Below are positions 2,657 to 55,614 of a stretch of 64,000 nucleotides of DNA, piece by piece; the first letter of the stretch is position 1, and each line of letters begins with the position of its first letter. A program made the position numbers and the translations under genes. The notes under the pieces are model-generated. The model ran no database searches and was not told the origin of the DNA. It was given only the letters and a program-made list of their open reading frames with translations. Origin of the DNA: Nitratireductor sp. GISD-1A_MAKvit (GTDB lineage: Bacteria > Pseudomonadota > Alphaproteobacteria > Rhizobiales > Rhizobiaceae); the NCBI RefSeq assembly GCF_040819555.1, contig NZ_CP161920.1, forward strand, positions 199,501 through 263,500. Reading direction: 5' to 3'.

Positions 2657-3686
2657 ATGACCGAAACCACGTTGGCCGTCGATGAGCTTGCACATCTCGT
2701 CGAGACCATCATGCTCAAGGGGGGGCTTTCCCCACTCCATGCCAGCGCTTTGACGCGGGTGATTGTGGCGGGTGAGCGCGATGCCTGCAAATCTCATGGC
2801 GTCTATCGAATTGAAGGGTGCCTGCGCACCATCAAGGCGGGCAAGGTCGTACCGGACGCAGAGCCAGAACTGGCGAGCGATGAAAGCGCCATTGTGCGCG
2901 TTGCGGCAAAGGGTGGCTTCGCAAACGCCGCATTTGAACTCGGTGCGCCGGTGCTGGCCGAAAAGGCCCGTCAATTCGGGGTCGCAGCCCTTGTCATCAA
3001 CGATTGTACCCATTTTTCGGCCCTGTGGCCCGAGATTGAGACATTGACCGCACATGGCGTTGCCGCCATGGCCATGTGCCCGAGCTATGCCAGCGTTTCT
3101 CCATCCGGCGGCAATGCGCCCCTGTTGGGCACCAACCCGTTTGCGTTCGGGTGGCCGCGGCGCGACACCACCCCTTACGTGTTCGATTTTGCCACCAGCG
3201 TTGCCGCGCGTGGAGAGATCGAGCTCTATCGCCGCGCTGGAAAGGCCCTGCCGGAAGGCTGGGCGATCGACAGGAACGGGAACCCCACGACAGACCCCGA
3301 AGCTGCGCTTGATGGGGCCATGCTTCCCTTTGGCGGCCACAAGGGATCGGCCATATCCACCATGATCGAACTGCTTGCCGGGATCATGATCGGCGACCTG
3401 ACGAGCCCGGAGGCGCTTGAAGCACTGGGAACCACGACCCTTGCACCAGCCCATGGCGAGCTGATTCTTGCCTTCGATCCGGCCCCGTTTCGCACAGGGA
3501 CGCAGCGGCGATCCCATGGCGCGTGCGGAGGCCCTGTTTGAGGCCATGGCCGGGCAGGGAGCAAGGCTGCCCTCTCAGCGCCGGTTTGCCGCGCGCGAAA
3601 AGGCGCTGTCGGAAGGCATTCACCTGACCGGTGAGGAGATGGCGCTTCTGGAACGTCTGCGAGAAAAAGGGCTCGACGCGGTCTGA
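2657..3686 (+). CDS. Ldh-family (malate/L-lactate dehydrogenase-like) reductase, HypS/DpkA type; frame broken near 3483
   Basis: Member of the NAD(P)H-dependent Ldh2/malate-lactate dehydrogenase family. In imino-acid pathways these enzymes reduce delta1-pyrroline-2-carboxylate or delta1-piperideine-2-carboxylate. The start ATG follows AGGAAAGGACAACTTC. Family signatures are the early RIEGCLRTIKAG, HFSALWPEIE, GTNPFAFGWPR near residue 158, and LPFGGHKGSAIS near residue 224. The frame runs to about residue 275, then shifts at CCCC 3483-3486; removing one C joins GELILAFDPA to RFAQGRSGDPMARAE and restores a normal 342-residue protein ending at 3686. It sits in the hydroxyproline cluster, divergent from the semialdehyde dehydrogenase. 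The break is more likely a base-calling error than decay, because the downstream part remains perfectly family-like. Confidence 0.82.
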
Positions 3687-3691
3687 TGGCA

Positions 3692-3718
3692 GGAGCCCTC
3701 CCGAAACGGGAGGGCTCC
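3692..3718. terminator. Bidirectional hairpin terminator
   Basis: GGAGCCCTCCC-GAAAC-GGGAGGGCTCC forms an 11-base-pair stem in the 40-base gap between the convergent reductase (ends 3686) and hypD (ends 3727) genes. No long U tract follows on either strand, so termination strength is uncertain. Confidence 0.7.
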
Positions 3719-3726
3719 CAGACCGA

Positions 3727-4689
3727 TCAGGCGGCGTATTTTGCGACCGCGCCTGGCAGCTTGCTCCAATTGCCGTACCAGTCGCGGAACAACCGGTACT
3801 GGGCCTCGGCATAACCGCGCTGGCTCTCGGACAAGGCATCCGTCTCGTTGAAATGCAGGCGGTATTCCTCGTCGCCGTTCATCACCATGAGATATTTGTA
3901 ATAGAGCACAAGATCTGCCCCTTCATCGAAGGACGACAGCACACCCAGCGCCGCATCGAGCTCGGCGGCGCGCTGCCGCGCTTCCGCATCGCCTGCCGCG
4001 GCCGCCTGGCTTAATGCAACGAGGTGCAGAACCTCGCGGGGAAACACATTGCCGATGCCGGTGATGGCGCCATCGGCACCGCAGTTGACGAAGCCATGAT
4101 AGACCGTGGTGTCGACGCCAATCATGAGCTTGATGTCGGGATCGCCGCTGGTGATGTTCTCCGCCGCGTAACGCAGATCGGCCGCACCGCCGAATTCCTT
4201 GAAGCCAACCAGATTGGAGTGTTCCGCGCGCAGTGCGAAGAACAGGTCAGCGCGGGTGGCAAAACCGTAATAGGGGCTGTTGTAGATGACCGCAGGCAGG
4301 TCGGGCGCAGCCGCAAGAATGGCCTTGAAGTGATCCTTCTGCGCTGCCGGTGAGCTGCCACGTGAGAGAACGCGCGGAATGACCATAAGGCCTTCTGCCC
4401 CGACCTCGGCTGCATGAGCAGCATGCGCGACGGCAATTTTGGTGTTCACGGCGCCAGTACCGACAATGACGGGAACGCCAGCGCCCACCAGCCGGGCAAC
4501 GCCTTCCATGCGCTCCTCGTCGGTGAGAAGAGGCCAGTCGCCCATGGAGCCGCAATAGACCACGGCGCGCATGCCCGTTTCGATCAGTTCCTTGCCCTTG
4601 CGTACAAGCGCATCGAAATCCGGGCTGCGATCAGCCTTGCAAGGGGTCATCAAGGCGGGAATGCATCCCGAGAAAATATGGTTGGTCAT
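3727..4689 (-). CDS. hypD: Delta1-pyrroline-4-hydroxy-2-carboxylate deaminase (DapA superfamily)
   Basis: Class I aldolase-fold enzyme of the DHDPS/NAL superfamily, 320 residues. HypD deaminates delta1-pyrroline-4-hydroxy-2-carboxylate to alpha-ketoglutaric semialdehyde in D-hydroxyproline breakdown. The Schiff-base lysine is K164 in VGFKEFGG and the conserved tyrosine is Y136 in VIYNSPYYG. YCGSMGDWPLLT and the C-terminal HFNETDALS stretch are, from memory, characteristic of rhizobial HypD rather than DapA or 5-keto-4-deoxyglucarate dehydratase. The ATG at 4687-4689 follows AAGGAGATCGGC; an in-frame ATG 15 bases upstream would place the ribosome site inside the coding region. The upstream gap holds the GntR-type site at 4788-4797. 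Confidence 0.88.
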   Translation of the reverse strand: MTNHIFSGCIPALMTPCKADRSPDFDALVRKGKELIETGMRAVVYCGSMGDWPLLTDEERMEGVARLVGAGVPVIVGTGAVNTKIAVAHAAHAAEVGAEGLMVIPRVLSRGSSPAAQKDHFKAILAAAPDLPAVIYNSPYYGFATRADLFFALRAEHSNLVGFKEFGGAADLRYAAENITSGDPDIKLMIGVDTTVYHGFVNCGADGAITGIGNVFPREVLHLVALSQAAAAGDAEARQRAAELDAALGVLSSFDEGADLVLYYKYLMVMNGDEEYRLHFNETDALSESQRGYAEAQYRLFRDWYGNWSKLPGAVAKYAA

Positions 4690-4787
4690 GCCGATCTCCT
4701 TCAAGTGCCCGAACCGATGCCCCGCCCGACATCAAGCGGCGGCGCTTCCCGATTGGGGTCGAGATCAAAATATCACTTGTATTTTTT

Positions 4788-4797
4788 TTGTCGACAC
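4788..4797. promoter_or_regulatory. Putative GntR operator, site 2
   Basis: TTGTCGACAC, next to a run of eight T residues, lies about 100 bases upstream of the hypD start and 3' of the GntR gene. It shares the TGTCGACA core with the site at 850-859. Confidence 0.45.
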
Positions 4798-4856
4798 AAA
4801 TTTATGCAAGCCGACATTGTCGCCTTCGATCGGAGGATCGCCGATGAACCGTTTGG

Positions 4857-5561
4857 CTAGAGCGCGACCTTCTGCCGGTGGTCTCGCGCAATCATGTTGC
4901 GGATTTGCTCGACGATCTGGTCAGCGTGCTCACTGGCCAGAATGTCGGCCTTTTCCACATCGCGTGCCGCGATGGCAGCGATCATGTCCTCATGCTCCAC
5001 GACATAGCGCTTGGGAAGCTGGTCGTTGAACGAGGAGTAATATAGCCGCAGAAGCCGGCGCCCTTCATCGAGCAATCTCAGAAACAGGCTTTCATAATAC
5101 GGATTACGGGCTGCGACGGCGATGGCGGCGTGAAACTCGCGATTGGTGGATATCATGGCCAGCGCGTCCTGCTCCTCAACGGCTTTGGCAAACTCTGCCT
5201 GGCGGGCGCGAATTGTCACCAGATCATCCGCCTGATGATTGCGCGCGGCGAGCCGCGTGGTCACGCGATACATCAGTGTCAGTGCATCGAAGAAGGTGTG
5301 CAGGTTCAGGAAATCGATGTTGGCGACCACCGTCGAGCGATTGGGCAGGGTTGTTACCAGTCCCTCGCCAGCGAGCCGCACAAGCGCCTCGCGAATGGGC
5401 GTGCGCGACATGGAAAGACGCTGCGCAAGCTGAATTTCATCAATCGGTGTACCGGGTGCAAGCGCCAGGTCCAGAATCTCATCCCGCAGAACATTGTAGA
5501 CAAACTGCACGCCGGAACCGCGCTTGCGTTCGGCGGGTTTGCGCGTGGCGGTTTCGGACAT
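4857..5561 (-). CDS. GntR-family transcriptional regulator with FCD domain (hydroxyproline regulator)
   Basis: DNA-binding regulator of 234 residues. The N-terminal winged helix spans about residues 18-85, with the typical LAQRLSMSRTPIREALVRLAGEGLV helix-turn-helix region. A C-terminal all-helical FCD effector domain covers about residues 90-225, including EFHAAIAVAARNPYY and a late EHADQI histidine that fits the FCD metal site. It lies in the middle of the hydroxyproline genes, oriented with hypD. A candidate operator is 12 bases upstream of its own start (5573-5582), suggesting autoregulation. Its likely effector is a hydroxyproline isomer or a pathway intermediate; this is inferred from context. 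Confidence 0.9.
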   Translation of the reverse strand: MSETATRKPAERKRGSGVQFVYNVLRDEILDLALAPGTPIDEIQLAQRLSMSRTPIREALVRLAGEGLVTTLPNRSTVVANIDFLNLHTFFDALTLMYRVTTRLAARNHQADDLVTIRARQAEFAKAVEEQDALAMISTNREFHAAIAVAARNPYYESLFLRLLDEGRRLLRLYYSSFNDQLPKRYVVEHEDMIAAIAARDVEKADILASEHADQIVEQIRNMIARDHRQKVAL

Positions 5562-6022
5562 GGCTGAACCTCATGTGTACAAGAAAAATACTGTTAGGAA
5601 TGAATGGGAGTGAACGTCAAGGGCGCGACGCATCCCTGCGTCCACGCCCTTTTCACCTGCGATGGATCAATTTCGAAATGCGATGCCCGCGTGTAATGAA
5701 ATATGGTTCTGCTCTCAGAGCTTAAAATAATGCAGATTGTCGTGCCCGGAAAAAGTCCGCGCAATCAATTAATTTCAATACAGCCGAGAAAAATGAGTTT
5801 TGGCTGGGGATATACCGGTGACCATGCATCCCGATGACCCGACCGGGATCGCGTCACCCGGTCTTGCATCGAGGTGCCCCGTTCCGATGGATCGCCAACG
5901 GAGAGTTTGCGACATGAACGGTTCCCCTCCACGCAGCGACGGAGGATGACAGGTGCTGGCGGGTCTGCCGGATGTGCGCATCTGCCTCGCCCGAGCGGTG
6001 GCGCAAATGCGGGCACCGGGTG
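5562..6022. other. Intergenic region upstream of the GntR gene, with a hairpin at 5619-5652
   Basis: There is no convincing gene in these 461 bases. Besides the operator at 5573-5582, positions 5619-5652 form a two-part stem (AAGGGCG...CGCCCTT outside, GACGCA...TGCGTC inside) followed by TTT on the plus strand, which resembles an intrinsic terminator. No plus-strand gene precedes it, so it may end a short unannotated transcript or be structural only. The rest, up to the permease stop at 6023, shows nothing I recognise. Confidence 0.4.
5573..5582. promoter_or_regulatory. Putative GntR operator, site 3 (autoregulatory)
   Basis: ATGTGTACAA lies just upstream of the GntR start codon (5561) and matches ATGT-NN-ACAA exactly, as does the site before the TRAP gene. 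Confidence 0.5.
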
Positions 6023-6886
6023 CTATTTGATCCCGGCCCGCATGAAGCTCTGAACGAACTGGCGCTGAAACAGAAGGAAGCCGATCAACAGCGGCCCGGA
6101 TGTTATCAGGGTTGCCGCATTGATGATGGACCACTCAATTCCACTGTCGGTGGTTGCGAAGATCGACAGACCGACTGTGAGAGGACGCGTCTCGGTGGAA
6201 GAAGTGATGATCAGCGGCCAGATGAAGTTGTTCCAGTGGTGCGAGACGGAAACCAGGCCAAACGCAAGCATGGTCGGTTTGGCGAGAGGCACGTAGACCC
6301 TCCACAGCAATCCGAGCAGCGTGCAACCCTCGATGCGTGCGGCTTCGTCCAGTTCTTTCGGGATGGTCTTGAATGTCTGACGCAGCAGGAAGATGGCGAA
6401 ACCGGAAGCGAAATAGGGAAGCCCGATCGCAAGGATCGTGTCGACCAGCCCAAGGGCGCTCATCGCCGCATAGTTTCGGACAATAAGGATATCCGGCATC
6501 ACCATGAGCTGAAGCAACACCAGCGAGAACAGAATGTTTTTTCCCGGGAACTCGAGCCGGGCAAAGGCAAAGCCGGCCAGGGTACACAGCACGAGCTGAG
6601 CGAAGAGGATCATGGTGACCAGCAGGATCGTGTTCACGAAATACCGTGCGAAGGGCGCCGCATTCCACGCCTCGATGAAATTTTCAAACGTGAGCGGGGC
6701 GAACAGATCGAAACGTGTCTCGTAGGCGGATGGATGAATTGCGGTCCAAACGGCGTAGAGAAGCGGAAGCAGCCAAACCAGGGCCAATGCCCAGGCACCA
6801 GCGACAAACAGCATGCGGTCGAAGCTGACCTTCCGCCCGGAAGAACCGGCGGAAACCTGTGTCCGTGCAATTGCGGTGGTGTTCAT
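6023..6886 (-). CDS. ABC transporter permease, UgpE/MalG type
   Basis: Inner-membrane permease of 287 residues in the carbohydrate uptake (CUT1) class. Six hydrophobic segments are visible, beginning with LFVAGAWALALVWLLPLLYAVW. The EAA loop that docks on the ATPase is EAARIEGCTLLGLLWRVYVPLAKP. The ATG at 6884-6886 overlaps the stop of the upstream permease (ATGA arrangement), showing translational coupling. It is the last gene of the operon ATPase - binding protein - permease - permease. The substrate is unknown; the linked phosphoesterase and SurE genes suggest a phosphorylated compound. Confidence 0.9.
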   Translation of the reverse strand: MNTTAIARTQVSAGSSGRKVSFDRMLFVAGAWALALVWLLPLLYAVWTAIHPSAYETRFDLFAPLTFENFIEAWNAAPFARYFVNTILLVTMILFAQLVLCTLAGFAFARLEFPGKNILFSLVLLQLMVMPDILIVRNYAAMSALGLVDTILAIGLPYFASGFAIFLLRQTFKTIPKELDEAARIEGCTLLGLLWRVYVPLAKPTMLAFGLVSVSHHWNNFIWPLIITSSTETRPLTVGLSIFATTDSGIEWSIINAATLITSGPLLIGFLLFQRQFVQSFMRAGIK

Positions 6887-7810: not shown

Positions 7811-7818
7811 GCTTGTTC

Positions 7819-10305: not shown

Positions 10306-11155
10306 ATGACCGCTTTCAGCATGCTTCATCTGTCCGACACACACCTGTCGGCGCGGATGAATCATTTTCGACGCAACAACGAACTCATGCTGGAAAGGCT
10401 GAAAGACGCTGATCACGATCTCATCATCCATACCGGCGACATCACGCTTGACGGCATTCGCCACGCGGACGATTTCGACTTCTGCCATTCGTTTTACAAG
10501 GGGCTGGACCGCGACATCCATTTCCTTCCCGGCAATCACGATGTCGGCGACAACCCGCGACTTTCCCGACCGGCCGGCGAAAACGGCAGCGCGATCGACG
10601 GGACCCGCATGGCTCGCTACCTCGCCCATTATGGCGAAGATCGCTGGGTGATCGATCGGGAACGCTGGCGCATTCTGGGCATCAATTCCCTGCTCATAGG
10701 CTCCGGCCCTGCCACGCGAGAGAGAGCAGAACGCGTGGGTGATGGAACAGCTGGCCGACCTCGGCGATCGTCATCTGGCACTGTTTAGCCATCAACCTTT
10801 TTTCATCGACGAGCCGGACCCGCTGGAACTCAGCTACTGGACCGTCGACCCCGAAGGCCGGGAGGGCCTGCGATTTCTGATGGAGCACCCCAATCTCAGG
10901 ATGATTGCGAGCGGGCACCTTCACCAGCAGAGGGCACGTGAGTATGGCCGGACCGGTCTCATCTGGTGCCCATCAATCGCCTTCACCACCCGTGAAGAAC
11001 TCGTGCCCGAGATGGGCGGCCAACGACAGGTCGGCTATCTCGAGCACATGTTCGAAGACGACGGAACGGTTGCGACGAGAATGTGCACGCACCCCGGGTT
11101 CGAAAACAGTCATCTCGATGACGTGATCAAGGTCGTCTACCCCTTCGCCGGATAG
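10306..11155 (+). CDS. Calcineurin-like metallophosphoesterase (CpdA/GpdQ-like, class III phosphodiesterase); frame broken near 10707
   Basis: Predicted dinuclear metal phosphoesterase. The ATG follows AAAAAGGAGATCTGAA. The metal ligands are all present: SDTH near residue 11, GDITLD near residue 43, GNHD near residue 76, the histidine of FSHQPFF, and GHLH near residue 205. This order matches cyclic-nucleotide phosphodiesterases and glycerophosphodiesterases of the GpdQ/CpdA group. The first frame runs to GSGP..., then is lost at CCC 10707-10709; deleting one C gives GSGLPREREQNAWVMEQLADLG and a 282-residue protein ending at 11155. There is no signal peptide, so it is likely cytoplasmic and acts on an imported phosphodiester. 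It is divergent from the ABC operon and next to surE, sharing the putative SorC operator. Confidence 0.82.
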
Positions 11156-22590: not shown

Positions 22591-23929
<1,339 letters not shown>

Positions 23930-25480: not shown

Positions 25481-27188
25481 ATGTCAGAACTCAATCCGTC
25501 TCGCGATGATTTCGCGAGCCTTCTCGAAGAATCCTTTTCCGAACGCGACGCCGCAGAAGGCTCCGTTGTAAAGGGTCTCGTCACCGCCATTGAAAAAGAC
25601 ATGGCGATCGTCGATGTCGGCCTCAAGGTCGAGGGCCGCGTGCCGCTGAAGGAATTCGGCGCGAAGGGCAAGGAATCCGATCTCAAGGTCGGCGACGAAG
25701 TCGAGGTCTATGTCGAGCGCATCGAAAACGCGCTTGGCGAAGCCATGCTGAGCCGCGAGAAGGCACGCCGCGAGGAAAGCTGGGTCAAGCTGGAAGCGAA
25801 GTTCAACGCCGGCGAGCGCGTCGAAGGCTTCATCTTCAACCAGGTCAAGGGCGGTTTCACCGTCGATCTGGACGGCGCCGTGGCCTTCCTGCCGCGTTCG
25901 CAGGTGGACATTCGTCCGATCCGCGACGTCACCCCGCTCATGCACACCCCGCAGCCCTTTGAAATCCTCAAGATGGACAAGCGCCGCGGCAACATCGTCG
26001 TGTCCCGCCGCACGGTTCTCGAAGAGAGCCGCGCCGAGCAGCGCTCCGAGATCGTCCAGAACCTCGAAGAGGGTCAGGTGGTCGAAGGCGTGGTCAAGAA
26101 CATCACCGATTACGGTGCGTTCGTGGACCTGGGCGGCATCGACGGCCTGCTGCACGTGACCGACATGGCATGGCGCCGTGTCAACCATCCGACCGAGATT
26201 CTCAACATCGGTCAGACGGTCAAGGTGCAGATCATCCGCATCAACCAGGAAACCCACCGCATCTCGCTGGGCATGAAGCAGCTCGAGGCCGATCCGTGGG
26301 ACGGCATCGGCGGCAAGTACCCGCTTGGCAAGAAGGTTCTAGGCCGCGTCACCAACATCACCGACTACGGTGCGTTTGTGGAGCTGGAGCCGGGCATCGA
26401 AGGCCTGATCCACGTTTCGGAAATGTCCTGGACGAAGAAGAACGTTCATCCGGGCAAGATCCTCTCCACCACGCAGGAAGTCGAAGTGGTGGTGCTGGAA
26501 GTGGATCCGGTCAAGCGCCGCATCTCGCTCGGCCTCAAGCAGACGCTCGAGAATCCGTGGGAGGCATTCGCCCGCAATCACACCGTCGGCTCCGTTGTCG
26601 AGGGCGAGGTCAAGAACAAGACCGAGTTCGGCCTGTTCATCGGTCTCGATGGCGATGTGGACGGCATGGTTCACCTTTCCGATCTCGACTGGAACCGTCC
26701 GGGCGAGCAGGTGATCGAGGAGTACAACCGTGGCGACATGGTGAAGGCTCAGGTTCTCGACGTGGACGTCGACAAGGAGCGCATCTCGCTCGGCATCAAG
26801 CAGCTTGGCCATGACGCCATTGGCGAGGGCCGCCGCTTCCGGCGAGCTGCGCAAGGGCGCCGTGGTGACCTGTGAAGTGACCGACGTGAAGGACGGTGGC
26901 CTTGAGGTTCGCCTGGTCGATCACGATGTCGAAAGCTTCATCAAGCGTTCCGACCTGTCGCGTGACCGTGCCGAGCAGCGCCCCGAGCGCTTCTCCGTCG
27001 GCCAGAAGGTGGACGCCCGCGTCACCGTCTTCGACAAGAAGACCCGCCGCATCAGCGTCTCGATCAAGGCTCTGGAGATCGCGGAAGAGAAGGAAGCCGT
27101 GGCACAGTTCGGTTCCACCGACTCCGGCGCCTCTCTCGGCGACATCCTCGGCGCAGCCCTGAAGAACAAGGGCGGCGACGACGAATAA
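25481..27188 (+). CDS. rpsA: 30S ribosomal protein S1; frame broken at 26827-26829
   Basis: Essential ribosomal protein that brings mRNA to the 30S subunit. The ATG at 25481 opens MSELNPSRDDFASLLEESF. Six S1 (OB-fold) repeats are visible once the break is repaired, among them GQVVEGVVKNITDYGAFVDLGGIDGLLHVTDMAW and the closely similar next repeat. The frame is lost near the end at GGG 26827-26829; removing one G gives KQLGHDAIGEAAASGELRKGAVVTCEV and a 568-residue product with the usual ending. As sequenced, the last repeat would be replaced by a short tail. An essential gene in otherwise perfect condition points to an error in the sequence rather than a true mutation. Confidence 0.93.
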
Positions 27189-27610: not shown

Positions 27611-28537
27611 ATGACCAACGCCTCAGACGATCAGGATCATCCTGTTCTCAATGCCTTCAATGAGATTGAGAAGCCCTTGGTCAATGAAGTAGACACTGCA
27701 AAGTTCACCGATGAGGATGACTTCAACCGGCTGGGAGTGTCGTTACTCATCGAGGCGGGCAGCTACGTTTGCATCGCCGCAAACACGCTTGGTGAGAATG
27801 AAAAATGGGATCGAGACACGGCCGCAATAGGTGGAAACATGGTCCGACTCTACAAGATGATTTCGGGTGTTCTGGATCAAACAACCCAGCGACGGCGTGA
27901 TACGAGCTTTATTTTCGCACGTTTGGTTTTCGAAACGGTCGTGACAATACGTTACCTCATAAAACACTTTAGTCCTGATCTGGTTGCTTCTTACGTAAAG
28001 AACTCCTTCAAGCATGAGGTCAAACTGCGAAGGAAGATAGAGCAAAACATCGCGGCACGTGGTGGAGTAATTTTGCCGATCGAAGATCGCATGATGAAGT
28101 CGATTGATCGTTCGTTTGCGAGTGCTGGCGTCAATCCAAGTGACCTAAGCGAATATAGGGAAAGAAACTGGGGCGCGCGAAACCTCTACGAGAAGGCGGA
28201 GGACCTGGGGATGGACGATGCGTATTTAGGCGCGTTCTCCGGACCGTCACAAGCCGTGCATGGCGCTTGGGGAGACATCTACTCACACTGCCTTCAGACC
28301 GATGGCGATGAGTTGTTTTCACCGAACATTGAATGGGGCTACCCACGCCCACAATTGATTACTGCTACAGCAAGTCTGAGTCTGTTCGCTGTAAACGATT
28401 ATTTTGGGTTTGTTTGCGGTCCAGATTTGCAAGAAGTGGTACAAGGTCACCTAAGTGATTTAGCAACTCGATTGGATGCTTTTAACCGGGCACACGAAGC
28501 ATACCTTGCACCGAAGGAATGGCCCAGAATCCGCTAA
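27611..28537 (+). CDS. DUF5677-like hypothetical protein
   Basis: Predicted soluble, mostly helical protein of 308 residues. The core RRRDTSFIFARLVFETVVTIRYLIKHF followed by a conserved-looking RNWGARNLYEKAEDLGM and a SQAVHGAWGDIYSH histidine segment resembles DUF5677 proteins, which are scattered among bacterial accessory regions; biochemical function is unknown to me. ATG 27611 has only a weak AGGAACAAC ahead of it. Codon use is visibly more AT-rich than in rpsA or the nucleoside cluster, and the gene is flanked by an imperfect 15-base direct repeat. Acquisition by transfer is likely. Confidence 0.7.
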   Translation: MTNASDDQDHPVLNAFNEIEKPLVNEVDTAKFTDEDDFNRLGVSLLIEAGSYVCIAANTLGENEKWDRDTAAIGGNMVRLYKMISGVLDQTTQRRRDTSFIFARLVFETVVTIRYLIKHFSPDLVASYVKNSFKHEVKLRRKIEQNIAARGGVILPIEDRMMKSIDRSFASAGVNPSDLSEYRERNWGARNLYEKAEDLGMDDAYLGAFSGPSQAVHGAWGDIYSHCLQTDGDELFSPNIEWGYPRPQLITATASLSLFAVNDYFGFVCGPDLQEVVQGHLSDLATRLDAFNRAHEAYLAPKEWPRIR

Positions 28538-29168: not shown

Positions 29169-30702
29169 ATGGCTGAAACGGCAATCGAGCTCAAGGGCAT
29201 CAGCAAGAGCTTTGGCGCGGTTCATGCAAACCGCAACATCGATCTGAAAATCGAGGCCGGGACAATCCACGGCATCATCGGCGAAAACGGGGCCGGCAAA
29301 TCGACCCTGATGTCGATCCTCTATGGCTTCTATCAGGGCCGATCGCGGGCAGATCCATGTGGGCGGCAAAAAGGCCGCGATCAACACGCCGAGCGACGCC
29401 ATCGCGCTGGGCATCGGCATGGTGCATCAGCACTTCATGCTGGTGCAGAATTTCTCCGTGCTGGAAAACGTGATCCTGGGGGCGGAAGGCGAGGCGCTGC
29501 TCAACACCTCCATCGCCAAGGCGCGCTCGGAGCTGGAGCGGCTGGAACGCGACTATGGGCTGGAGGTGGACCCCGACGCCATCATCGAGGATCTGCCGGT
29601 GGGCCTGCAGCAGCGGGTGGAAATCCTCAAGGCGCTCTATCGCGGCGCGGACATTCTGATCCTCGACGAGCCGACCGGCGTTTTGACGCCGGCAGAGGCG
29701 GACCATTTGTTCCGCATTCTGGAGCAGCTCAAGGAAGAGGGCAAAACCATCATCCTCATCACCCACAAGCTGCGCGAGATCATGGCGATCACCGACAATG
29801 TCTCGGTCATGCGGCAGGGCACGATGGTGGCAACCCGCAAGACCGCCGAGACAAGCGTGGAGGAGCTGGCCGAGCTGATGGTCGGCAGGCGCGTGCTGCT
29901 TCAGGTGGAAAAGGGCGAGGCAAGCCCCGGCGACGTGCTGCTTTCGGTGCGCAATCTCACCGTGAAGGATTCCCGCGGCGTTACCATGGTCGACAATGTG
30001 TCGCTCGATGTGCGCGCGGGCGAGATCGTCGGCATTGCCGGCGTGGCGGGCAACGGGCAGTCGCAGCTTCTCGATGCCGTTACGGGCGTGCGCAGGGCCG
30101 TTTCCGGCACGGTGACGCTGGATGGCGAGCCGGTGGACCTGACCGGCGCGGCAGACCCCGCAGACCTGCGCGCGCGCGGCATGGCCCATGTGCCCGAAGA
30201 CCGGCACCATGTGGGGCTTGTTCTGCCGTTCGAGGAAAACGAGAACGCCATGCTTGGCTATCACCGGCAGGATAAATACCTCAACGGCCCCTTTCTCAAC
30301 ATCGAGGCGATCCGCGCCGATGCGCGCGAGAAGATTGAGAAATACGACATCCGCCCGCCCGACTGCCGGCTGAAGACGGCCAATTTCTCCGGCGGCAACC
30401 AGCAGAAGATCGTGCTGGCGCGCGAGATGGAACAGAACCCCAAGGTGCTGATCGTCGGCCAGCCGACGCGCGGCGTGGATGTGGGCGCCATCGAGTTCAT
30501 TCACAAACGGCTGATCGACATGCGTGATCAGGGCAAGGCGGTGCTTCTGGTCTCAGTGGAGCTTGATGAAATCCGCTCGCTCTCCGACCGCATCCTGGTC
30601 ATGTTCGCCGGTCGCGTGGTGGGCGAGCGCGGACCCGAGGCCAGCGAAGGCGAGCTTGGCCTGCTCATGGCCGGCGTCGAGGAAAAGGAGGCGGCGGAAT
30701 GA
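29169..30702 (+). CDS. Nucleoside ABC transporter ATP-binding protein (NupA/YufO type, two domains); frame broken at 29336-29338
   Basis: Double-NBD ATPase of the BmpA-linked purine/pyrimidine nucleoside importer class. The first domain has Walker [15 protein letters not shown] near residue 38. The frame breaks right after YGFYQ at GGG 29336-29338; removing one G gives [18 protein letters not shown] and a 510-residue protein. The first signature is replaced by the variant [15 protein letters not shown] usual in this family, with Walker [16 protein letters not shown]. The second domain has [14 protein letters not shown] and [15 protein letters not shown]. It overlaps the next permease gene by four bases. 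It is first in an operon with two permeases, cdd, PNP and deoA, so nucleosides are the likely cargo. Confidence 0.88.
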
Positions 30703-34013: not shown

Positions 34014-35337
34014 ATGATGCTCCCCCAGGAAATCATCCGTCGCAAACGGAACCGAGAAGCGCTCACCGGTGATGAGATTGCCGAGTTTGTGTATGGGCTT
34101 GCGCATGACACCTGGAGCGAGGGCCAGATTGCAGCACTTGCAATGGCCATCTACCTGAACGGCATGGAGCCGGCAGAAGGCGCAGCCCTGACGCTGGCCA
34201 TGCGCGATTCTGGAACCGTTCTCGACTGGTCCGATCTACCCGGCCCCGTTACAGACAAGCATTCCACGGGTGGCGTGGGCGACAATGTTTCGCTCATGCT
34301 CGCCCCCATCGTCGCGGCCTGCGGCGCGTTTGTGCCGATGATTTCCGGACGCGGCCTCGGCCACACCGGTGGCACGCTCGACAAGATGGATTCCATTCCA
34401 GGCTACACCAGCCAGCCGAGTGAGCGGCAGTTCGCCGATACGGTTCGCCAGACTGGATGTGCGATCATTGGCCAGACTGCGGATCTCGCACCTGCCGACA
34501 GACGTTTTTATGCCGTCCGCGACGTGACGGGAACGGTGGAATCGATCCCGCTCATCACTGCGTCAATTCTGTCCAAGAAGCTCGCTGCGGGGCTTTCTTC
34601 GCTGGTTCTGGATGTAAAATCGGGCAATGGCGCGTTTATGGGAGATGCGCGCGCCGCCCGCAAGCTCGCCGAGAATCTTGTGCGCGTGGCCGGCGAGGCG
34701 GGCCTTTCATCCACCGCGCTCGTGACAGACATGAACGAGCCACTGGCGTCGGCCGCCGGCAACGCCGTCGAGGTTGCCAATGCCGTGGATTTTCTGACGG
34801 CCAAGAAACGGGGGCGCCGGCTGGAAGGCGTGACCCTCGCACTGGCCGGCGAAATGCTGCAGGCATCCGGCATTGCGGCAACCACGCGTGAGGCCTTCGA
34901 CAGGGTGCTTGAAGCGCTCGAAAGCGGCCGCGCGGCCGAGACATTCGGAAGAATGGTTTCCGCGCTCGGGGGCCCACCGGACTTCATTGAAAAAGCGGCC
35001 GATTATCTGCCACGAGCAACAGTGAATGCCCCGGTTCTGGCGGATGAAGACGGGTTTGTCGGCGCAATCGATGCACGAGCCATCGGCATTTGCGTGATCG
35101 AACTGGGAGGCGGAAGGCGCGTCGCGGATGACCGGATCGACCATTCGGTGGGTCTTTCCGGGCTGCTTCCCGTCGGGGCCGAAATCAGACGCGGCGAACC
35201 GCTTTGCATGGTTCACGCAGCCTCCACCGACGCGGCCCGAGCGGGCGGCAGAAGCGGTGCGGAAAGCCTATGGCGTTGTTGGTGAGAAACCGCGCGCAAG
35301 AAAAACCATCCTTCGGCGCGTGACGGCACACCCTTAA
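34014..35337 (+). CDS. deoA: Thymidine phosphorylase; frame broken at 35236-35238
   Basis: Pyrimidine-nucleoside phosphorylase cleaving thymidine to thymine and deoxyribose-1-phosphate. The start is ATG 34014 or 34017 (MMLPQEIIRRKRN). The phosphate/substrate signature is KHSTGGVGDNVSLMLAPIVAACG, followed by MISGRGLGHTGGTLDKMDSIPG. The frame is lost near the C-terminus at CCC 35236-35238; deleting one C gives ASTDAAERAAEAVRKAYGVVGE and a stop at 35335-35337, total 440 residues. As sequenced it would end early with a short foreign tail. It is the last gene of the nucleoside operon. Confidence 0.9.
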
Positions 35338-40853: not shown

Positions 40854-41281
40854 GTCAAAATTCGTAATCGATACGTCAGCATTGATCGCTGTTCTGAACG
40901 GCGGTCCCGACATCGAAGCGCTCTGCGAGGCTCTGGAAAAAGCCGAGCGGATCGTCATCAGCAGCACGACCACGTTTGAAGCGCACTATGTCGCCAAGCA
41001 TATTTCCCTGATTGACGGCACTTCGCGTCTCAATGCCCTGTTGTCCGTGCTTGCTCCTGAAACAATCGACTTCGATGATCGGCAATTGACCATCGCGAGG
41101 AAGGGCCTATGCGATCTATGGTCCCGGAACGGGCCACAGGGCGGGACTGAATATCGGCGACTGCTTTGCCTATGCACTGGCCAGAGCGGTTAATCTGCCA
41201 TTGCTTTTCATGGGTGATGATTTCATTCATACAGATATCGAGCCCGCCATCAGGCTGTCCGAGGAGAGCGTTTCCGCATGA
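40837..41281 (+). CDS. vapC: PIN-domain toxin VapC; frame broken at 41103-41105
   Basis: Predicted PIN-domain ribonuclease that would cleave RNA when not bound by VapB. The N-terminal VIDTSALIAVLNG carries the first acidic residue; E in the TTTFEAHYV segment and D in the later [12 protein letters not shown] complete the site. The frame is lost at GGG 41103-41105; removing one G gives [32 protein letters not shown] and a 147-residue protein whose stop overlaps the coaBC start. As sequenced the last acidic residue is missing, so the toxin would be dead. ATG 40837 is the start closest to the PIN core. Confidence 0.82.
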
Positions 41282-45560: not shown

Positions 45561-45916
45561 TCAGTCCTTCCCGGCGTCGTGCTGACGATCCTCCCTTTCC
45601 AGAATCGCCTGCAATGCATCGAGCCGATCTGTCCAGAAGCGCTCATAATAGCGGAACCACGCATGCGCTTCGGCAAGGCGCGCAGCTTCCAGCCGACAAT
45701 AATGGGTGCGGCCTTCCACCCGCCGGCTGACGAGGGCCCCGCCCCCTCCAGAACTTTCACATGTTTGGAAGCGCCGGCCAGCGACATGTCGAAGGGCTTC
45801 GCCAGGTGAGACACACTTTGCTCGCCGTTCGACAAACGATGCAGCATGGCGCGCCGTGTCGGATCCGACAGGGCATGGAAAACGGCATCAAGATGAGGAG
45901 AAATATGCTCAACCAT
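45561..45916 (-). CDS. ArsR-family transcriptional regulator; frame broken at 45734-45746
   Basis: Winged-helix repressor of the SdpR-like group usually paired with AHSA1-type genes. DAVFHALSDPTRRAMLHRLSNGEQSVSHLAKPFDMSLAGASKHVKVLEGAG is intact, then the frame is lost. On the coding strand GCGGGGCCCTC should read GCGGGCCTC, so two extra bases (one G, one C) are present; repair gives GLVSRRVEGRTHYCRLEAARL and a 117-residue protein ending at 45561. No metal-binding cysteines of the ArsR/SmtB type are seen. Confidence 0.82.
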
Positions 45917-47323: not shown

Positions 47324-48914
47324 TCAGGCTGCCTTGCGGGTCTGATAGTCCTTGACCGTGGCAAAACGGATCGCCTTCCAGCGGTCTGCCTCATAGTTCA
47401 GACCGAACTCGTGCGGCGCGAGGAAAACCGGATCATCGTCGAGATCGCGGGCGATGTCGCCACGGTGCGCGTTGATGAAGCGATCCACCTCATCCGGCTC
47501 TTCGGACGAGATCCAGCGGCACACGCTGAACCGCGCCATCTCGAAATCCACGGGAAGCGAATATTCGATCTTCAGTCGCTCCTTGAGCACATCAAGTTGC
47601 AGCGCGCCAACGACGCCGACAATGGCGGGCGATCCGTCTTCCGGCGTGAAAAGCTGCACGACGCCCTCTTCTGCCATCTGCTGCAGAGCTTCTCTCAGCT
47701 TCTTGGCTTTCATGGCATCGCCAAGCCGGACGCGGCGCAGGATTTCCGGCGCGAAATTGGGCACCCCACGGAACAGAAGCTCCTCGCCCTCGGTCAACGT
47801 GTCGCCGATGCGCAGCGTGCCATGATTGGGGATACCCACCACGTCACCGGCAAAGGCCTCGTCTGCAGTGATGCGGCTTTTCGCAAAGAAAAACTGCGGG
47901 GCGGAAAGACTGATCGGCTTGCCGGTGCGCACCAGCTTGGCTTTCATGCCACGCTGTAGTCTGCCCGAGCACACGCGTACAAACGCGATGCGGTCGCGGT
48001 GGTTTGGGTCCATGTTGGCCTGGATCTTGAAAACGAAAGAGGTCATCTTTTCCTCCGTCGCTTCCACCCTGCGCGAATCCGCATCCTGTGCGCGCGGCGC
48101 GGGGGCCGAAGGCGCCCAGCGCCTCGATCAGATCGCGCACACCGAAATTGCGCAGTGCCGATCCGAAATAGACCGGGGTGAGGTGCCCTTCGCGGAAGGC
48201 CTGCATGTCGAACGGACGGCAGGCTTCCTTGCCGAGCTGCATCTCCTCCACCAGCATGTCGCGCTCATGCTCCGGCAGGAGCCCGGCAACGGCGTCGGAT
48301 TCCGGTCCGTTTACGGCGATGGGCTCCACATCGTCATCGGAGCGACGCATCGTGTTGTTGGCGAGATTGTAGGTGCCGACAAAGCTCTTGCCCCGACCGA
48401 TGGGCCAGGTGATGGGTGCCGTATCGAGCGCGAGCTTTTGTTCGATCTCATCGAGAATCTCGAACGGGTCGCGGCTTTCCCGGTCCATCTTGTTGACGAA
48501 GGTGACGATCGGAATATCACGCAGGCGGCAAACCTCGAACAGTTTCAGCGTGCGCGGCTCGATGCCCTTGGCCGCATCGATGACCATGATCGCGCTGTCG
48601 ACCGCCGTCAGCGTGCGATAGGTATCGTCGGCAAAATCTTCGTGGCCCGGCGTGTCGAGCAGGTTGAAGACGTGATCGCCATATTCGAAGGTCATCACCG
48701 AGGTGACAACGGAAATGCCGCGTTCGCGCTCGATGTTCATCCAGTCCGAACGCGTCTGCACGCGGTTCTTCTTCGCCTTCACCTCGCCGGCGAGCTGAAT
48801 GGCGCCGCCGAAAAGAAGCAGCTTTTCGGTCAGCGTGGTCTTGCCCGCATCCGGGTGCGAAATGATTGCAAAGGTGCGGCGGCGCGACACCGCATCGGCG
48901 ATTTTGTCGGTCAT
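47324..48914 (-). CDS. prfC: Peptide chain release factor 3; frame broken at 48101-48105
   Basis: Translational GTPase of 529 residues (after repair) that recycles RF1/RF2. Start ATG 48912-48914 gives [20 protein letters not shown]. GTPase motifs are [28 protein letters not shown] and [10 protein letters not shown]. The frame fails at GGGGG 48101-48105 (CCCCC on the coding strand); removing one C gives [24 protein letters not shown] and rejoins the well-conserved C-terminal domains ([24 protein letters not shown]). As sequenced the protein would lack domains II and III. Confidence 0.92.
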
Positions 48915-50907: not shown

Positions 50908-50956
50908 CGGACAATCGGCAAGGCCCTGACGCGTAGCATGGGAAGCGGAGCGCCCG

Positions 50957-53074
50957 ATGAGCAATACCCAATCCGGTCAGCCGGCAATTCCGGTTGAGGC
51001 TGAGATGCATGACCATACGCATGGTGAATTCGGAACCGACGGCATCGGCCGGCTGCTGTTCTGGATCGCGGTCATTTTCTCGCTCTACCAGATTGCAACC
51101 GCCGCGCATGTGATCAGCCTGCCGAGCCAGGTGGTCCGCGCCTTCCACGTCGGTTTTCTGACGCTGCTGGTTTTCCCGCTGGTGGCTCAGGCGCGTGACA
51201 GCGCCCCCATGATCAAGGCGCTTGCCTGGGCGCTGGCGCTCGCCGGCGTGGCCGTCGCACTCTATCAGTACATTGAGTACAAGCCGCTGCTCCTGCGGGC
51301 CGGCGACCCCTTACCGCTCGATATCGTCTTCGGTGTGATCGCGCTCGTCACCGTTTTTGCCGCCGCCTATGTGCTCATGGGGCCGGCGCTGCCGATCATC
51401 TCCGGCGCGTTTCTCGCCTACTGCCTGTTCGGCCAATACCTGCCCTCCCCGCTCAACCATCGCGGCTACGATTTCAGCCAGGTCATCGACCACATGGCCT
51501 ATGGGACGGAGGGCATTTACGGCATCCCGATCTATGTATCGGCGACCTATATCTTTTTGTTCATCCTGTTCGGCTCCTTTCTGGAACGTGCCGGCATGAT
51601 CAAACTCTTCACCGACGTGTCGCTCGGTCTTGTTGGCCATGCGCGCGGCGGTGCTGCCAAGGTGTCGGTCATCTCGTCTGGCCTGATGGGCACGATCTCC
51701 GGTTCCGGCGTTGCCAATGTGGTCACCACCGGCCAGTTCACCATCCCGCTAATGAAGCGCTTCGGCTATCGCGCGGCCTTTGCCGGCGGCGTGGAATCCA
51801 CCGCCTCCATGGGCGGGCAGATCATGCCGCCCGTGATGGGCGCGGTGGCGTTCATCATGGCCGAGACGCTGGGCGTGGAATATTACGAAGTGGTCAAGGC
51901 CGCGATTATCCCAGCCGTGCTCTACTTCGCCTCGGCCTTCTGGATGGTGCATCTGGAGGCCGGCAAATACGGGCTGCATGGCCTGCCGCGGTCCGAGCTA
52001 CCTTCCGCACGCAATGCGTTGAAGAAGGGCTGGCACCTCATCCTGCCGCTGGCGGTGCTGGTCTATCTGCTGTTCACGGGATACACACCGCTTTTCGCCG
52101 GCACGATCGGCCTTTCACTGACGGTGCTTCTTATCCTCGGCGGCTCGGTAGCGCTCGGCCTTCCCGGCCAGGTGCTGCGGGTGATCTTCTGGGTCGGCCT
52201 CGGCCTGGTGGCGGCGAGCTTTTTCAGCTACGGCATCACGGTCATCCTCATTGCAGCCCTCGCCCTGATCCTCGCCAACCTGTTTGTCGATGGCGGGCGC
52301 AGGACACTCATTGTCTGTCGGGATTCACTCGCTGAAGGTGCCAAGACGGCACTTCCCGTCGGCGTGGCCTGCGCGGTGGTCGGCATCATCATCGGAACCA
52401 TGACACTGACAGGTGTTGCAAACACATTCGGCCAGTTCATCGTGTCGGTGGGCGAGACGAGCCTGTTCCTCTCGCTCGTTCTCACCATGATAACCTGCAT
52501 CGTGCTGGGCATGGGCATCCCCACCATTCCGAACTACATCATTACATCCTCGATTGCCGGACCGGCGCTTCTGGCGCTCGGCGTTCCGCTGATCGTCAGC
52601 CACATGTTCGTGTTCTATTTCGGCATTCTGGCGGATCTGACGCCGCCCGTGGCGCTCGCCTGCTTCGCAGCCGGCCCCATCGCCAGGGAGAACGGCCTCA
52701 AAATTTCCATGGAGGCGATCAAGGTGGCTGCCGCCGGTTTCGTCATCCCCTTCATGGCCGTCTATACGCCCGCCCTGATGCTGCAGGACGGAGGACCGCT
52801 CGCGGAAGCCTGGGGCTATTATCCGGCGGTCGCCTATATCGTTTTCAAGGCGCTGCTCGCCATCGCACTCTGGGGCGCGGCAGTCATCGGCTTCCTGCGT
52901 ACCAAACTCTCCATCTGGGAGCGGGTTCTCGCAGCTGCCGCAGCCTTCACGCTTATTGCCGCGCTTCCCGTCACCGATGAGTTGGGCTTCGGGCTGGCAG
53001 CGATTTTTCTCGGCCTTCACTGGTATCGCACCCGCGCTGCGCAGGCTCCAGCGGATACGAAGGCCGGCACATGA
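50957..53074 (+). CDS. TRAP transporter fused permease (DctQM, 4TM/12TM)
   Basis: Integral membrane protein of 705 residues joining the small (DctQ) and large (DctM) subunits, as usual for TAXI systems. About 16-18 hydrophobic segments are visible. The DctM core is seen in SSGLMGTISGSGVANVVTTGQFTIPLMKRFGY and ESTASMGGQIMPPVMGAVAFIMAE, with LGMGIPTIPNYIITSSIAGPAL and DLTPPVALACFAAGPIA in the second half. The stop overlaps the DUF1850 start (ATGA). Confidence 0.93.
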   Translation: MSNTQSGQPAIPVEAEMHDHTHGEFGTDGIGRLLFWIAVIFSLYQIATAAHVISLPSQVVRAFHVGFLTLLVFPLVAQARDSAPMIKALAWALALAGVAVALYQYIEYKPLLLRAGDPLPLDIVFGVIALVTVFAAAYVLMGPALPIISGAFLAYCLFGQYLPSPLNHRGYDFSQVIDHMAYGTEGIYGIPIYVSATYIFLFILFGSFLERAGMIKLFTDVSLGLVGHARGGAAKVSVISSGLMGTISGSGVANVVTTGQFTIPLMKRFGYRAAFAGGVESTASMGGQIMPPVMGAVAFIMAETLGVEYYEVVKAAIIPAVLYFASAFWMVHLEAGKYGLHGLPRSELPSARNALKKGWHLILPLAVLVYLLFTGYTPLFAGTIGLSLTVLLILGGSVALGLPGQVLRVIFWVGLGLVAASFFSYGITVILIAALALILANLFVDGGRRTLIVCRDSLAEGAKTALPVGVACAVVGIIIGTMTLTGVANTFGQFIVSVGETSLFLSLVLTMITCIVLGMGIPTIPNYIITSSIAGPALLALGVPLIVSHMFVFYFGILADLTPPVALACFAAGPIARENGLKISMEAIKVAAAGFVIPFMAVYTPALMLQDGGPLAEAWGYYPAVAYIVFKALLAIALWGAAVIGFLRTKLSIWERVLAAAAAFTLIAALPVTDELGFGLAAIFLGLHWYRTRAAQAPADTKAGT

Positions 53075-53430
53075 GCATATGCGTTGTGGCAGGAGGAAAG
53101 GCGCTCACCCTTGCGGCTGCGCTTTTCACCCTGTCATGGACGCATTCGGTGGAGAAAATCCGCTGGGAGGAAGACTGGCGCGCAACGCCCGCCGGGCTGA
53201 AGATTGTCGAAGCGCGCGTTCAGGGGTCAGGAGCGGGCATGGAGCCGCCGCCTGATGCGAGCTTCGCCGCTGGCTGGTGGCGGTATAGCCCGTCTCTCCC
53301 TGCGCAATCCGAGCTTGTCCTGGCAGCCTCTGGCACCACGGGCTCCGGCTGGCGGCTATGCGCCGCCGGAACATGCCACGAGCTCGGCGCCGAAAGCGGC
53401 AAACCCGTAACCGTCAGATACTGTGAATAA
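53071..53430 (+). CDS. DUF1850 domain protein (TAXI-TRAP accessory)
   Basis: Small protein of 119 residues with an N-terminal hydrophobic segment (KALTLAAALFTLSWTHSVEKIRWEEDW) and a two-cysteine C-terminal part. WTHSVEKIRWEEDWRATPAGLKIVEARVQGSGAGMEPPPDA is the DUF1850 signature. DUF1850 genes regularly accompany TAXI permeases; their role is unknown. It is translationally coupled to the permease. Confidence 0.88.
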   Translation: MSICVVAGGKALTLAAALFTLSWTHSVEKIRWEEDWRATPAGLKIVEARVQGSGAGMEPPPDASFAAGWWRYSPSLPAQSELVLAASGTTGSGWRLCAAGTCHELGAESGKPVTVRYCE

Positions 53431-53436
53431 GTGGCG

Positions 53437-53571
53437 TCAGGCTGCTGTGGGGGAGCCACCGCCACGCTTCTGGCAGGCTGGGCCGGGACCACGCATGTAG
53501 TGGCGCTCGGGATGGTAGCGCGGGGCAATGAAATCGCGAAGAACGACGATAAGGCGAGTGAGCAAGGCCAT
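53437..53571 (-). CDS. Possible small basic protein (44 residues)
   Basis: Reading from ATG 53569-53571 gives MALLTRLIVVLRDFIAPRYH followed by a proline/glycine-rich basic tail ending PTAA. The hydrophobic-amphipathic start and the non-random composition look gene-like, but there is no strong ribosome site and I do not recognise a family. Confidence 0.3.
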   Translation of the reverse strand: MALLTRLIVVLRDFIAPRYHPERHYMRGPGPACQKRGGGSPTAA

Positions 53572-53659
53572 GGGTCATATCCAACCGGTGGCGGCTCCTC
53601 CAAAACCGCCTGTGTGAATTATCGTGACATAACTACACGCACGAAGTGAACGCTCCGTG

Positions 53660-53708
53660 AATGCCGGTCGGATTTCGCCGGCATTTGTGCCGCTTTGATG
53701 GCACAAAT
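53660..53708. terminator. Paired hairpins downstream of the M42 peptidase gene
   Basis: AATGCCGG/CCGGCATT (53660-53685) overlaps ATTTGTGCC/GGCACAAAT (53683-53708). They lie after the peptidase stop (minus strand, 53784) in a stretch (53572-53783) with no gene. Confidence 0.5.
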
Positions 53709-53783
53709 CGGGTCTTGCTGCGGAAGGGCGCGCAATGTGGCTGCCGCGCCACAGCTCAGCTGGGCGCGGCACGGCCTGGGGGC

Positions 53784-54830
53784 TTAGTTTTCGCCGAGAT
53801 AGGCAACGATGATGTCGAGCGCGGCCTGAAGGTCGTTGCGATCGATCATTTCGGTCACGGTGTGGATGTAGCGGGTGCCCACCACGATGCCCACAGCCCG
53901 CGCGCCAGCGGCCGCCTGCTGGGCTGCAGCGCCGTCCTGACCGCCTCGGGCCAGAATCGTGCGCTGGTAGGGGATCGCCTTTTTCTTCGCCAGTTGCTCG
54001 ACCTCGCGCACCAGCGCCTGATCGGCGATGAAGGAGGAATCCTTCACATGAAGGCCAAACCCCTCTCCCTGCTTCGTCACCGCCTCGTGCTCGCCGATTC
54101 CCGGCGTGTCACATGAGAGCGTGGTGTCGATGCCCAGACCGATATCGGGTTTGACCGCATAGGCGGCCGTGCGCGCGCCGCGCAACCCAACTTCTTCCTG
54201 AGCGGTAAAGGCCACATGGATTTCGCATGCATGCTTTTCACCCGCTTCTTCCAGCGTGCGTATCGCCTCGATACCAAGCCAGCAGGCGACGCGATTGTCG
54301 AGCGCCTTGGAGACGAATTTTTCTCCCATTTCCAGGAACGGCTCGTCCATCACCACGAAGTCGCCGACCTGCACCAGATCGCGCGCCTTTTCGCCAAGCC
54401 CCATGTCGACGATAAAATCGCCGGGTTCCGGCACCTTCTTGCGCTCTTCCGCACTCTGGATGTGGATCGGCTTGCCGGCGGGGTTCATCACACCCTTGTA
54501 ATCGCCGCTCTCGGTGCAGACGAGCACGCGGCGTGAGAACAGGTTGCGCGGATCGAAGCCACCCACCGGGTCGAGATGGAGGAAACCCTTCTCCGTCACA
54601 TGGGTCACGAGAAAAGCGATCTCGTCCATATGGCACAGAAGCATGATCTTGAGCGGGTCGCCCTTCGCCTTCTGGCGTGGCTTGCGCACGCAGAGCAGCG
54701 ACCCCATCGGGTCGGTCCGCACCTCGTCGAACAGACCTTCGATCTCTTTCTCGATAAGGGCGCGAACGCGCGTTTCGTGGCCCGGCGCGCCTGGCGTTTC
54801 ACAGAGCCTGCGCAGCAATTCGGTGTTCAT
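53784..54830 (-). CDS. M42 family metallopeptidase (aminopeptidase/endoglucanase-like)
   Basis: Cytosolic dizinc peptidase of 348 residues. Metal and catalytic residues are H67 and D69 in LLCHMDEIAF, the bridging aspartate in KALDNRVACWLG, the Glu pair in FTAQEEVGLRGARTA, D in LGIDTTLS, and a late histidine in TRYIHTVTEMI. The order fits TET/FrvX-type aminopeptidases; some relatives are annotated as cellulases without support. No signal peptide. Confidence 0.93.
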   Translation of the reverse strand: MNTELLRRLCETPGAPGHETRVRALIEKEIEGLFDEVRTDPMGSLLCVRKPRQKAKGDPLKIMLLCHMDEIAFLVTHVTEKGFLHLDPVGGFDPRNLFSRRVLVCTESGDYKGVMNPAGKPIHIQSAEERKKVPEPGDFIVDMGLGEKARDLVQVGDFVVMDEPFLEMGEKFVSKALDNRVACWLGIEAIRTLEEAGEKHACEIHVAFTAQEEVGLRGARTAAYAVKPDIGLGIDTTLSCDTPGIGEHEAVTKQGEGFGLHVKDSSFIADQALVREVEQLAKKKAIPYQRTILARGGQDGAAAQQAAAGARAVGIVVGTRYIHTVTEMIDRNDLQAALDIIVAYLGEN

Positions 54831-54929
54831 CGGTGTCCCCGGCTGAGCTTCGTTGGAATCATTCGTGAAGCGCGACCATGGCGCAAAGCGGCGCAGAAGG
54901 AAACGGCCACATTTCCGTTTCGCACTGGC

Positions 54930-55614
54930 TCAGGCGTCGCGCAGTAGCCGCTCGAAGGCTGCGCGCCCAGGCGGGGTAAAGCGGATTACGCGGCTGTTCT
55001 TTTCCCGCCGCACCCAATGCAGCACCATAAACCGGTCGAGAATCCCGGCTCCCAGACTTCCTGCCAGATGAGAACGCCGCACGCTCCAGTCCAGGCAGGA
55101 GCGACATACCGGGCGGCGCTTCCCGCGCATCGCCTCAATGTCGAGACCGAAATCGCTGAAGAACCCGGCCCCCTTGTTCGTGAGGTTCACGTCGTCTCCA
55201 TCGAGGGCGATGAAACCGCGCCCGGCAAAGGCGTCGAACATGGCAACGCCCGCCTCGCCCGCCAGATGGTCGTAGCAGATGCGGGCTTCGCGCATGGCCG
55301 TGTCACGCGGTCCGGGCAACACCTTGCGCGGCCCAAGCTCCGCAGCCACCCCCATGATCGATTCGAGCATGCCTGCGACCTGATGACCTGCCAGCGCATA
55401 GTAGCGGTGGCGGCCCCTGCCGCGTCATGCGCAGCAAGCCGCCATCTGACAGCTTGGCTAGATGCGCACTGGCTGTTGGCAAAGAGACACCGGCTTCCAT
55501 CGCCAGCTCACTGGTCGTGAGGGCCGTGCCCCCCATCAATGCTGCCAGCATATTGGCGCGCGCCGGGTCGCCGACGAGGCTTGCGGTCTGGGCGAGATCC
55601 GTTCCTGCTTTCAT
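54930..55614 (-). CDS. ArsR-family winged-helix regulator; frame broken at 55414-55417
   Basis: Regulator of 227 residues after repair. The N-terminal DNA-binding part reads LVGDPARANMLAALMGGTALTTSELAMEAGVSLPTASAHLAKLSDGGLL. The frame is lost at CCCC 55414-55417 (GGGG on the coding strand); removing one base gives RQGRHRYYALAGHQVAGMLESIMG and rejoins a C-terminal domain with CRSCLDWSVRRSHLAGSLGAGIL. The C-terminal cysteine pair (CRSC) could bind metal or sense redox state, which is an inference. It is divergent from the NIPSNAP/ABM gene pair, which it may control. Confidence 0.82.

Follow-up and report, generated by a model that had tools for sequence, protein, structure and literature searches.

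The stretch analysed here, referred to as the window, comprises 64,000 nucleotides of Nitratireductor sp. GISD-1A_MAKvit (bases 199,501 to 263,500 of the 3,844,019-base contig C2; the second contig of the genome has 271,704 bases). The strain is a marine bacterium of an environmental genus and, judged by aroA, is closest among named genomes to Nitratireductor sp. pb3 (98%) and to N. aquibiodomus (96%). Within the window, ten genes are broken by surplus bases in runs of G or C, and inspection of the flanks showed the word GGCC at all ten sites, with either its G side or its C side lengthened. The same genome encodes a Dnd DNA phosphorothioation system predicted to act on GGCC, and the surplus bases are probably errors of the assembled sequence at GGCC sites carrying that modification. 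The ten sites are listed below in window coordinates; G followed by a number denotes a comparison genome.

3483-3486, no strand assigned: extra base at GGCC; the gene is on the minus strand in G001, and the plus-strand frames of G002 and G008 jump too
10707-10709, plus strand: extra base at GGCC in a calcineurin-like metallophosphoesterase gene (PF00149); a Rhizobium homologue passes from frame 1 to frame 2
22649-22652, plus strand: extra base at GGCC near the 5' end of aroA; frame jump at C2:222151 (window 22651)
26827-26829, plus strand: extra base at GGCC in rpsA (ribosomal protein S1), ahead of the last S1 repeat; frame jump against five relatives
29336-29338, plus strand: extra base at GGCC in an ABC-transporter ATPase-like gene, named from a reading of the sequence without a family call
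35236-35238, plus strand: extra base at GGCC near the 3' end of deoA (pyrimidine nucleoside phosphorylase; PF07831); deoA of G001 and G002 passes from frame 3 to frame 1
41103-41105, plus strand: extra base at GGCC in a gene for a small protein (141 amino acids in G002); four relatives
45734-45746, minus strand: two extra bases around GGCC in an ArsR-type regulator gene (PF12840, PF01022); the ArsR-like protein of G001 passes from frame -1 to frame -3
48101-48105, minus strand: extra base at GGCC in prfC (peptide chain release factor 3); seen against five of five relatives in the DNA alignment, with a protein frame jump as well
55414-55417, no strand assigned: extra base at GGCC in a long open frame without a name; seen against five of five relatives in the DNA alignment, with a frame jump against the G006 protein

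Five genomes of the same genus served for comparison of all ten sites, by DNA alignment and by protein frame, and two difficult sites were also compared with further homologues. Protein frame jumps were chosen as the measure because DNA-level calling of insertions and deletions at 80-85% identity is noisy when used alone. An earlier reading of the sequence alone had listed these ten genes as frame-broken by one surplus base each, or two in the case of 45734-45746, and had proposed a comparison with orthologous proteins as a check. This comparison was run and bore out both the positions and the counts, as a frame change was located at the listed place in every one of the ten loci, nine of them +1 and one (45734-45746) +2. 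Jumps were placed at 3483, 26828, 29337, 41101, 48098 and 55416, among others. In the DNA alignment the extra base was seen against two of three covering relatives at 3483, four of five at 22649, and all five at each of 26827, 29336, 48101 and 55414. That alignment supported 26 single-base differences, of which six are sites of the list and one (41101) adjoins a seventh. The remaining 19 comprise nine insertions, none flanked by GGGCC or GGCCC, and ten deletions, and resemble the usual divergence of sequences that are 80-85% identical.

A wider scan was then carried out against the congener G002, using a loosened version of the protein filter, which at its first setting had removed 338 of 698 relative open frames. 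The scan was limited to two regions with G002 counterparts (633.5 kb of 833.5 kb sampled); of 626 open frames of G002, 350 were matched, covering 349.7 kb of the Nitratireductor genome. It gave 45 frame events, made up of 40 of +1, one of +2 and four minus shifts. GGGCC or GGCCC stood at the junction in 34 of them: 33 of the 40 +1 events, the +2 event, and none of the minus shifts. In random contexts of equal lengths either word is expected by chance in 3.3% of cases (p = 3.8e-41 for 34 of 45). Measured instead against the 8,176 G or C runs of three or more bases in the compared sequence, 915 (11%) of which have such a flank, the excess gives p = 1.3e-23. The sequence-only reading had ascribed the breaks to systematic over-calling of homopolymers, a claim that is not supported, the error being specific to the word GGCC.

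In the mirror scan, where frames of the strain's own genome were compared with G002, 26 events were found (19 of -1, six of +1 and one of +2). Fourteen of the 19 -1 events fall in 13 genes that the forward scan had listed as broken at the motif, and none of the seven plus-shift events has GGGCC or GGCCC. Judged by this reversal, the surplus base is in the sequence of the present strain and not in that of G002.

A reference-free scan was also performed, in which codon usage was scored on both sides of every G or C run of at least three bases. Its first setting yielded too few sites, and four settings were then used. In these, +1 jumps were called at 58/816, 21/333, 64/869 and 34/492 GGGCC-type runs of the strain, at 113/6,461, 32/2,665, 175/6,744 and 81/3,874 of its other G or C runs, and at 9/693, 2/420, 15/708 and 9/530 GGGCC-type runs of G002; other runs of G002 gave 21/3,588 at the second of these settings. 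Among twelve flank classes GGGCC had the highest +1 rate in the strain and ranked near the middle in G002. On the smaller contig, too, +1 jumps occur, at five of 20 GGGCC-type runs. Frame errors are thus concentrated at one word in one strain, with no excess in the congener G002, and this specificity points to a property of GGCC in the DNA of this strain.

The intact congener copies of 28 of the 34 motif-broken genes were searched against NCBIfam, six being left out. A family match at 1e-20 was obtained for 18 of them, and 13 passed the curated cut-off: pgi, the formate dehydrogenase alpha subunit, aroA, rpsA, prfC, dnaJ, glk, pckA, aroE, nuoC, lon, hppA and ampH. Matches below the cut-off were phoH-like, ctaA-like, dppB-like, a sensor kinase and a murein transglycosylase, and the other ten copies had no NCBIfam match. 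That all the genes of this set should be damaged together, always at the same word and by the same type of lesion, makes real mutation untenable in a living cell. On this sequence evidence the breaks are almost certainly errors in the assembled sequence, the genes being intact in the cell. The sequence-only reading had argued in part from rpsA. Its break in that gene stands (five of five relatives), but it lies about 450 codons into a gene of about 570 and costs only the last S1 repeat, so the case for an artefact rests on the whole gene set and not on rpsA alone.

Two further observations concern these loci. In two two-base events, at window 45734-45746 and at C2:44,677, a single GGCC palindrome appears lengthened on its G side as well as on its C side, as if both strands were affected. 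Between rpsA and the ABC-transporter-like operon, an open frame of 308 amino acids (window 27611-28537) lies in A+T-richer sequence and is perhaps an insertion.

The dnd cluster is located at approximately C2:2,750,000-2,756,250 and encodes DndA, DndB, DndC, DndD (in three pieces) and DndE. With dndB, dndC, dndD and dndE and a DndA/IscS cysteine desulfurase all encoded, it belongs to the Dnd phosphorothioation systems. The specificity loop of its DndC reads GYPAPRPKFRW, that is, R-P-K. Under the loop rule given in section 2.6 of PMC12193691, Arg-Xxx-Lys/Arg corresponds to GpsGCC (R-P-K in Streptomyces lividans), Thr-Arg-Ser to GAAC/GTTC, and Thr-Gln-Asn or Asn-Gln-Thr to GATC. The DndC of this strain is accordingly predicted, from its loop, to target GpsGCC. 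The word predicted from the loop and the word at which the errors occur were derived independently, and both are GGCC.

Among ten same-genus genomes DndC exceeded the family cut-off only in this one and in none of its nine congeners, and a dndD search of the ten gave strong pieces in the present genome alone and weak matches in two others, G005 and G012. Nine of 385 genomes in the class have a DndC match at 1e-60; the loop pattern was read in five of these, being R-P-K in three (the present genome, G280 and G094) and different in two. When the cluster was compared with an intact Massilia dnd operon, dndB showed one frame jump and dndD two, at GGGGGCC, at a stretch holding GGCCC, and at CAGGGCCG, all of them at GGCC. 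Within the DNA that was fetched, dndB, dndC and dndD are single-frame in G280, G094, G547, G636 and G902 (all R-P-K), and in the actinobacteria Arthrobacter (R-P-K) and Nonomuraea (K-P-K); the DndC of G902 has one TGA within the match. If the dndB and dndD breaks were real the Dnd system would probably be dead, while as artefacts they fit an active system.

The whole island spans C2:2,743,400-2,756,250, where PbeA, a PbeC-like protein, Orf5 and a PDC-S01-type protein adjoin dndABCDE. Searches with hidden Markov models (HMMs) matched PbeA (4e-271) and Orf5 (3e-223) strongly and the PbeC-like protein weakly (4e-16). A 157-amino-acid neighbour of these partner genes had no HMM match, and neither PbeB nor PbeD was identified beside dnd. 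A shorter DndC-like match in G001 (C1:1,137,839-1,138,660) scored 233.7 bits against the cut-off of 290.4.

In the covered sequence at least 34 of 2,905 GGCC sites (1.2%) are affected, a proportion that would be in line with the partial occupancy described as general for phosphorothioate motifs in PMC9521924 and PMC8053081. By true run length, and counting oriented sites, affected sites number 20 of about 4,933 with two G, 11 of about 715 with three G, and three of about 152 with four G. At the two-G affected sites the 5' base was A in 16 of 20 (expected 4.9) and the 3' base was G in 14 of 20 (expected 7.4); a 3' A occurred in none of the 31 tabulated affected sites. In S. lividans, according to PMC6186775, d(GpsG) occurs at 471 per million nucleotides within GGCC, as CGGCC or GGCCG, and the 3' G preference seen here agrees with the latter.

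Two further reports bear on how such sites are sequenced. Phosphorothioates raise nanopore errors around the modified site (PMC9069010). In two of ten P. aeruginosa isolates (PA068 and PA188) nearly all residual nanopore errors were at GGCC (PMC12345217), with quality drops at 1,716 of 70,459 and 1,646 of 83,098 GGCC sites (2.0-2.4%); these sites held 46 and 25 errors, respectively. Such drops were not apparent in the other eight isolates, so that workflow has no inherent difficulty with GGCC. Methylation did not explain the errors, and overcorrection by methylation-aware models was proposed by the authors; the excerpted text of PMC12345217 mentions neither phosphorothioation nor dnd. Among the matches listed in our literature search, no report linked Dnd phosphorothioation to consensus insertions at GGCC. 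A DndC encoded on a P. aeruginosa plasmid (NZ_CP133095.1:49712-51121) has the loop R-N-R and would, by the rule of PMC12193691, be of the GGCC class. The dndC-dndD DNA of the GAAC/GTTC class was found in 204 of 5,426 E. coli genomes.

The explanation that we regard as probable is that phosphorothioation of GGCC by Dnd led to consensus errors at the modified sites in long-read data. A minority of GGCC sites would receive a phosphorothioate, set by DndC at GpsGCC, and native DNA would have been read on what we take to be a long-read platform. The phosphorothioated GGCC would disturb the signal so that one additional G is called (C for the other strand), and where enough reads agreed the false base would enter the consensus. 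We infer that Dnd is active, that the affected sites carry sulfur, that a long-read platform was used, and that the sulfur caused the miscall.

An unlikely alternative is that GGCC is methylated by an unrecognised m5C or m4C methyltransferase which disturbs basecalling, Dnd being a bystander. GGCC is a target of M.HaeIII (PMC7461809), and motif-specific long-read errors caused by methylation are already known, but the genome had no match to PF00145 (C5 cytosine methyltransferase) in a search that covered PF00145 and PF01555, other methyltransferase families not being searched; the PF00145 search was positive in ten of 14 control genomes. C5 methylation of GGCC of the M.HaeIII type was set aside on this ground. 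Two PF01555 enzymes are encoded. One, matched in all nine genomes searched, is presumably CcrM-like, acting on GANTC. The other (C2:955,739-956,509), which is not the relatives' strong match, has a DPPY motif, typical of adenine methylation; its gene adjoins frames resembling a signal peptidase and a replication protein and is perhaps part of a mobile element. DNA methylation of target sites is usually near complete, and only about 1% of GGCC sites are affected. Generic over-calling of homopolymers by the platform is more improbable still. It would account for a surplus base that extends a G or C run, and for longer true runs being affected more often, but not for the rate of 32/2,665 at runs without the GGCC flank against 21/333 at GGGCC-type runs, nor for a true run of only two G in 20 of the 34 events.

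The sequence-only reading had also held gene decay and programmed frameshifting to be far less likely than sequence error, and here the gene set and the GGCC word agree with it. Real mutation, whether by decay, hypermutation or slippage at modified GGCC, is hardly credible: mutations might in principle arise from a modified backbone, but rpsA, aroA, aroE, nuoC, lon, dnaJ and others would have been damaged together by one lesion type at one word, and the breaks in dndB and dndD would probably have ended the modification itself. The chance that ribosomes are programmed to shift frame at the broken sites we regard as negligible. Both halves of each protein are conserved in two frames, as such shifting would have it, but in relatives a single frame encodes each of these proteins, and the sites lie in scattered, unrelated genes with GGCC as the sole common feature.

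Several points weigh against phosphorothioation as the cause. In the forward scan, seven +1 events (including C2:2,564,342) had neither GGGCC nor GGCCC at the junction, some of which may represent natural divergence or gene-start effects. G280, a genome of two contigs with an R-P-K DndC, showed no GGGCC excess at three settings (27/888 against 115/4,091 other runs, 3/218 against 29/1,018, and 9/417 against 76/1,975), which may mean that the assembly was polished with short reads, that it came from a different platform, that its system is silent, or that the hypothesis is wrong. An Arthrobacter StoSoilB13 replicon, also R-P-K, was weakly suggestive (17/411 against 55/2,757, p = 0.012; at other settings 7/247 against 29/1,798, p = 0.19, and 19/329 against 60/2,159, p = 0.007). 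Stretches of 50 kb from Nonomuraea (0/38) and Massilia (1/29) were too small to be informative, and Streptomyces xanthii offered zero scorable sites. The preferred 5' neighbour is A here and not that of the CGGCC of S. lividans (PMC6186775), and the errors described in PMC12345217 were mostly G-to-A substitutions, for which its authors propose methylation-aware overcorrection. Finally, both the activity of the Dnd system and the long-read platform are presumed.

On balance we lean towards the broader proposition that false GGCC insertions in deposited assemblies record Dnd phosphorothioation at base resolution. If so, the word at which frame errors cluster would reveal both dnd activity and the position of the sulfur, and the GGCC errors of P. 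aeruginosa could be accounted for, giving nanopore typing a testable cause. Genomes with an active Dnd system that were assembled from native long reads with no other polishing may carry hundreds of false pseudogenes at one word, essential genes and the dnd genes themselves among them; extrapolation from 34 per 350 kb suggests about 400 in the present genome. With Dnd as the cause, assembly errors would supply, at no cost, data on a backbone modification that has been poorly mapped. Dnd itself is already known, and it is the signature of consensus insertions that, if confirmed, would be a new form of modification-induced sequencing error, of practical use.

Among known systems, the present one most resembles the GpsGCC Dnd systems of S. 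lividans and Pseudomonas fluorescens Pf0-1 in its DndA-E genes, its predicted GGCC target and the small share of sites affected, and shares the R-P-K loop with that of S. lividans; it differs from them in that the target is predicted from genes, Pbe-type partners are matched by HMM, and the 5' neighbour is A and not C. As in the antiviral DndCDEA-PbeABCD systems (PMC6459918), PbeA, a PbeC-like protein and Orf5 (PADLOC names) adjoin dnd, whereas the archaeal system protects GATC and PbeB and PbeD were not identified here. The errors of P. aeruginosa PA068 and PA188 (PMC12345217) are mostly G-to-A substitutions from a stated platform, but like those described here they are strain-specific, involve a small share of GGCC sites and have no explanatory methylation. 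Phosphorothioate detection in Salmonella (PMC9069010) concerned a GAAC/GTTC motif and errors at the level of reads, not insertions in an assembly consensus; in that work phosphorothioates increased nanopore errors near the motif.

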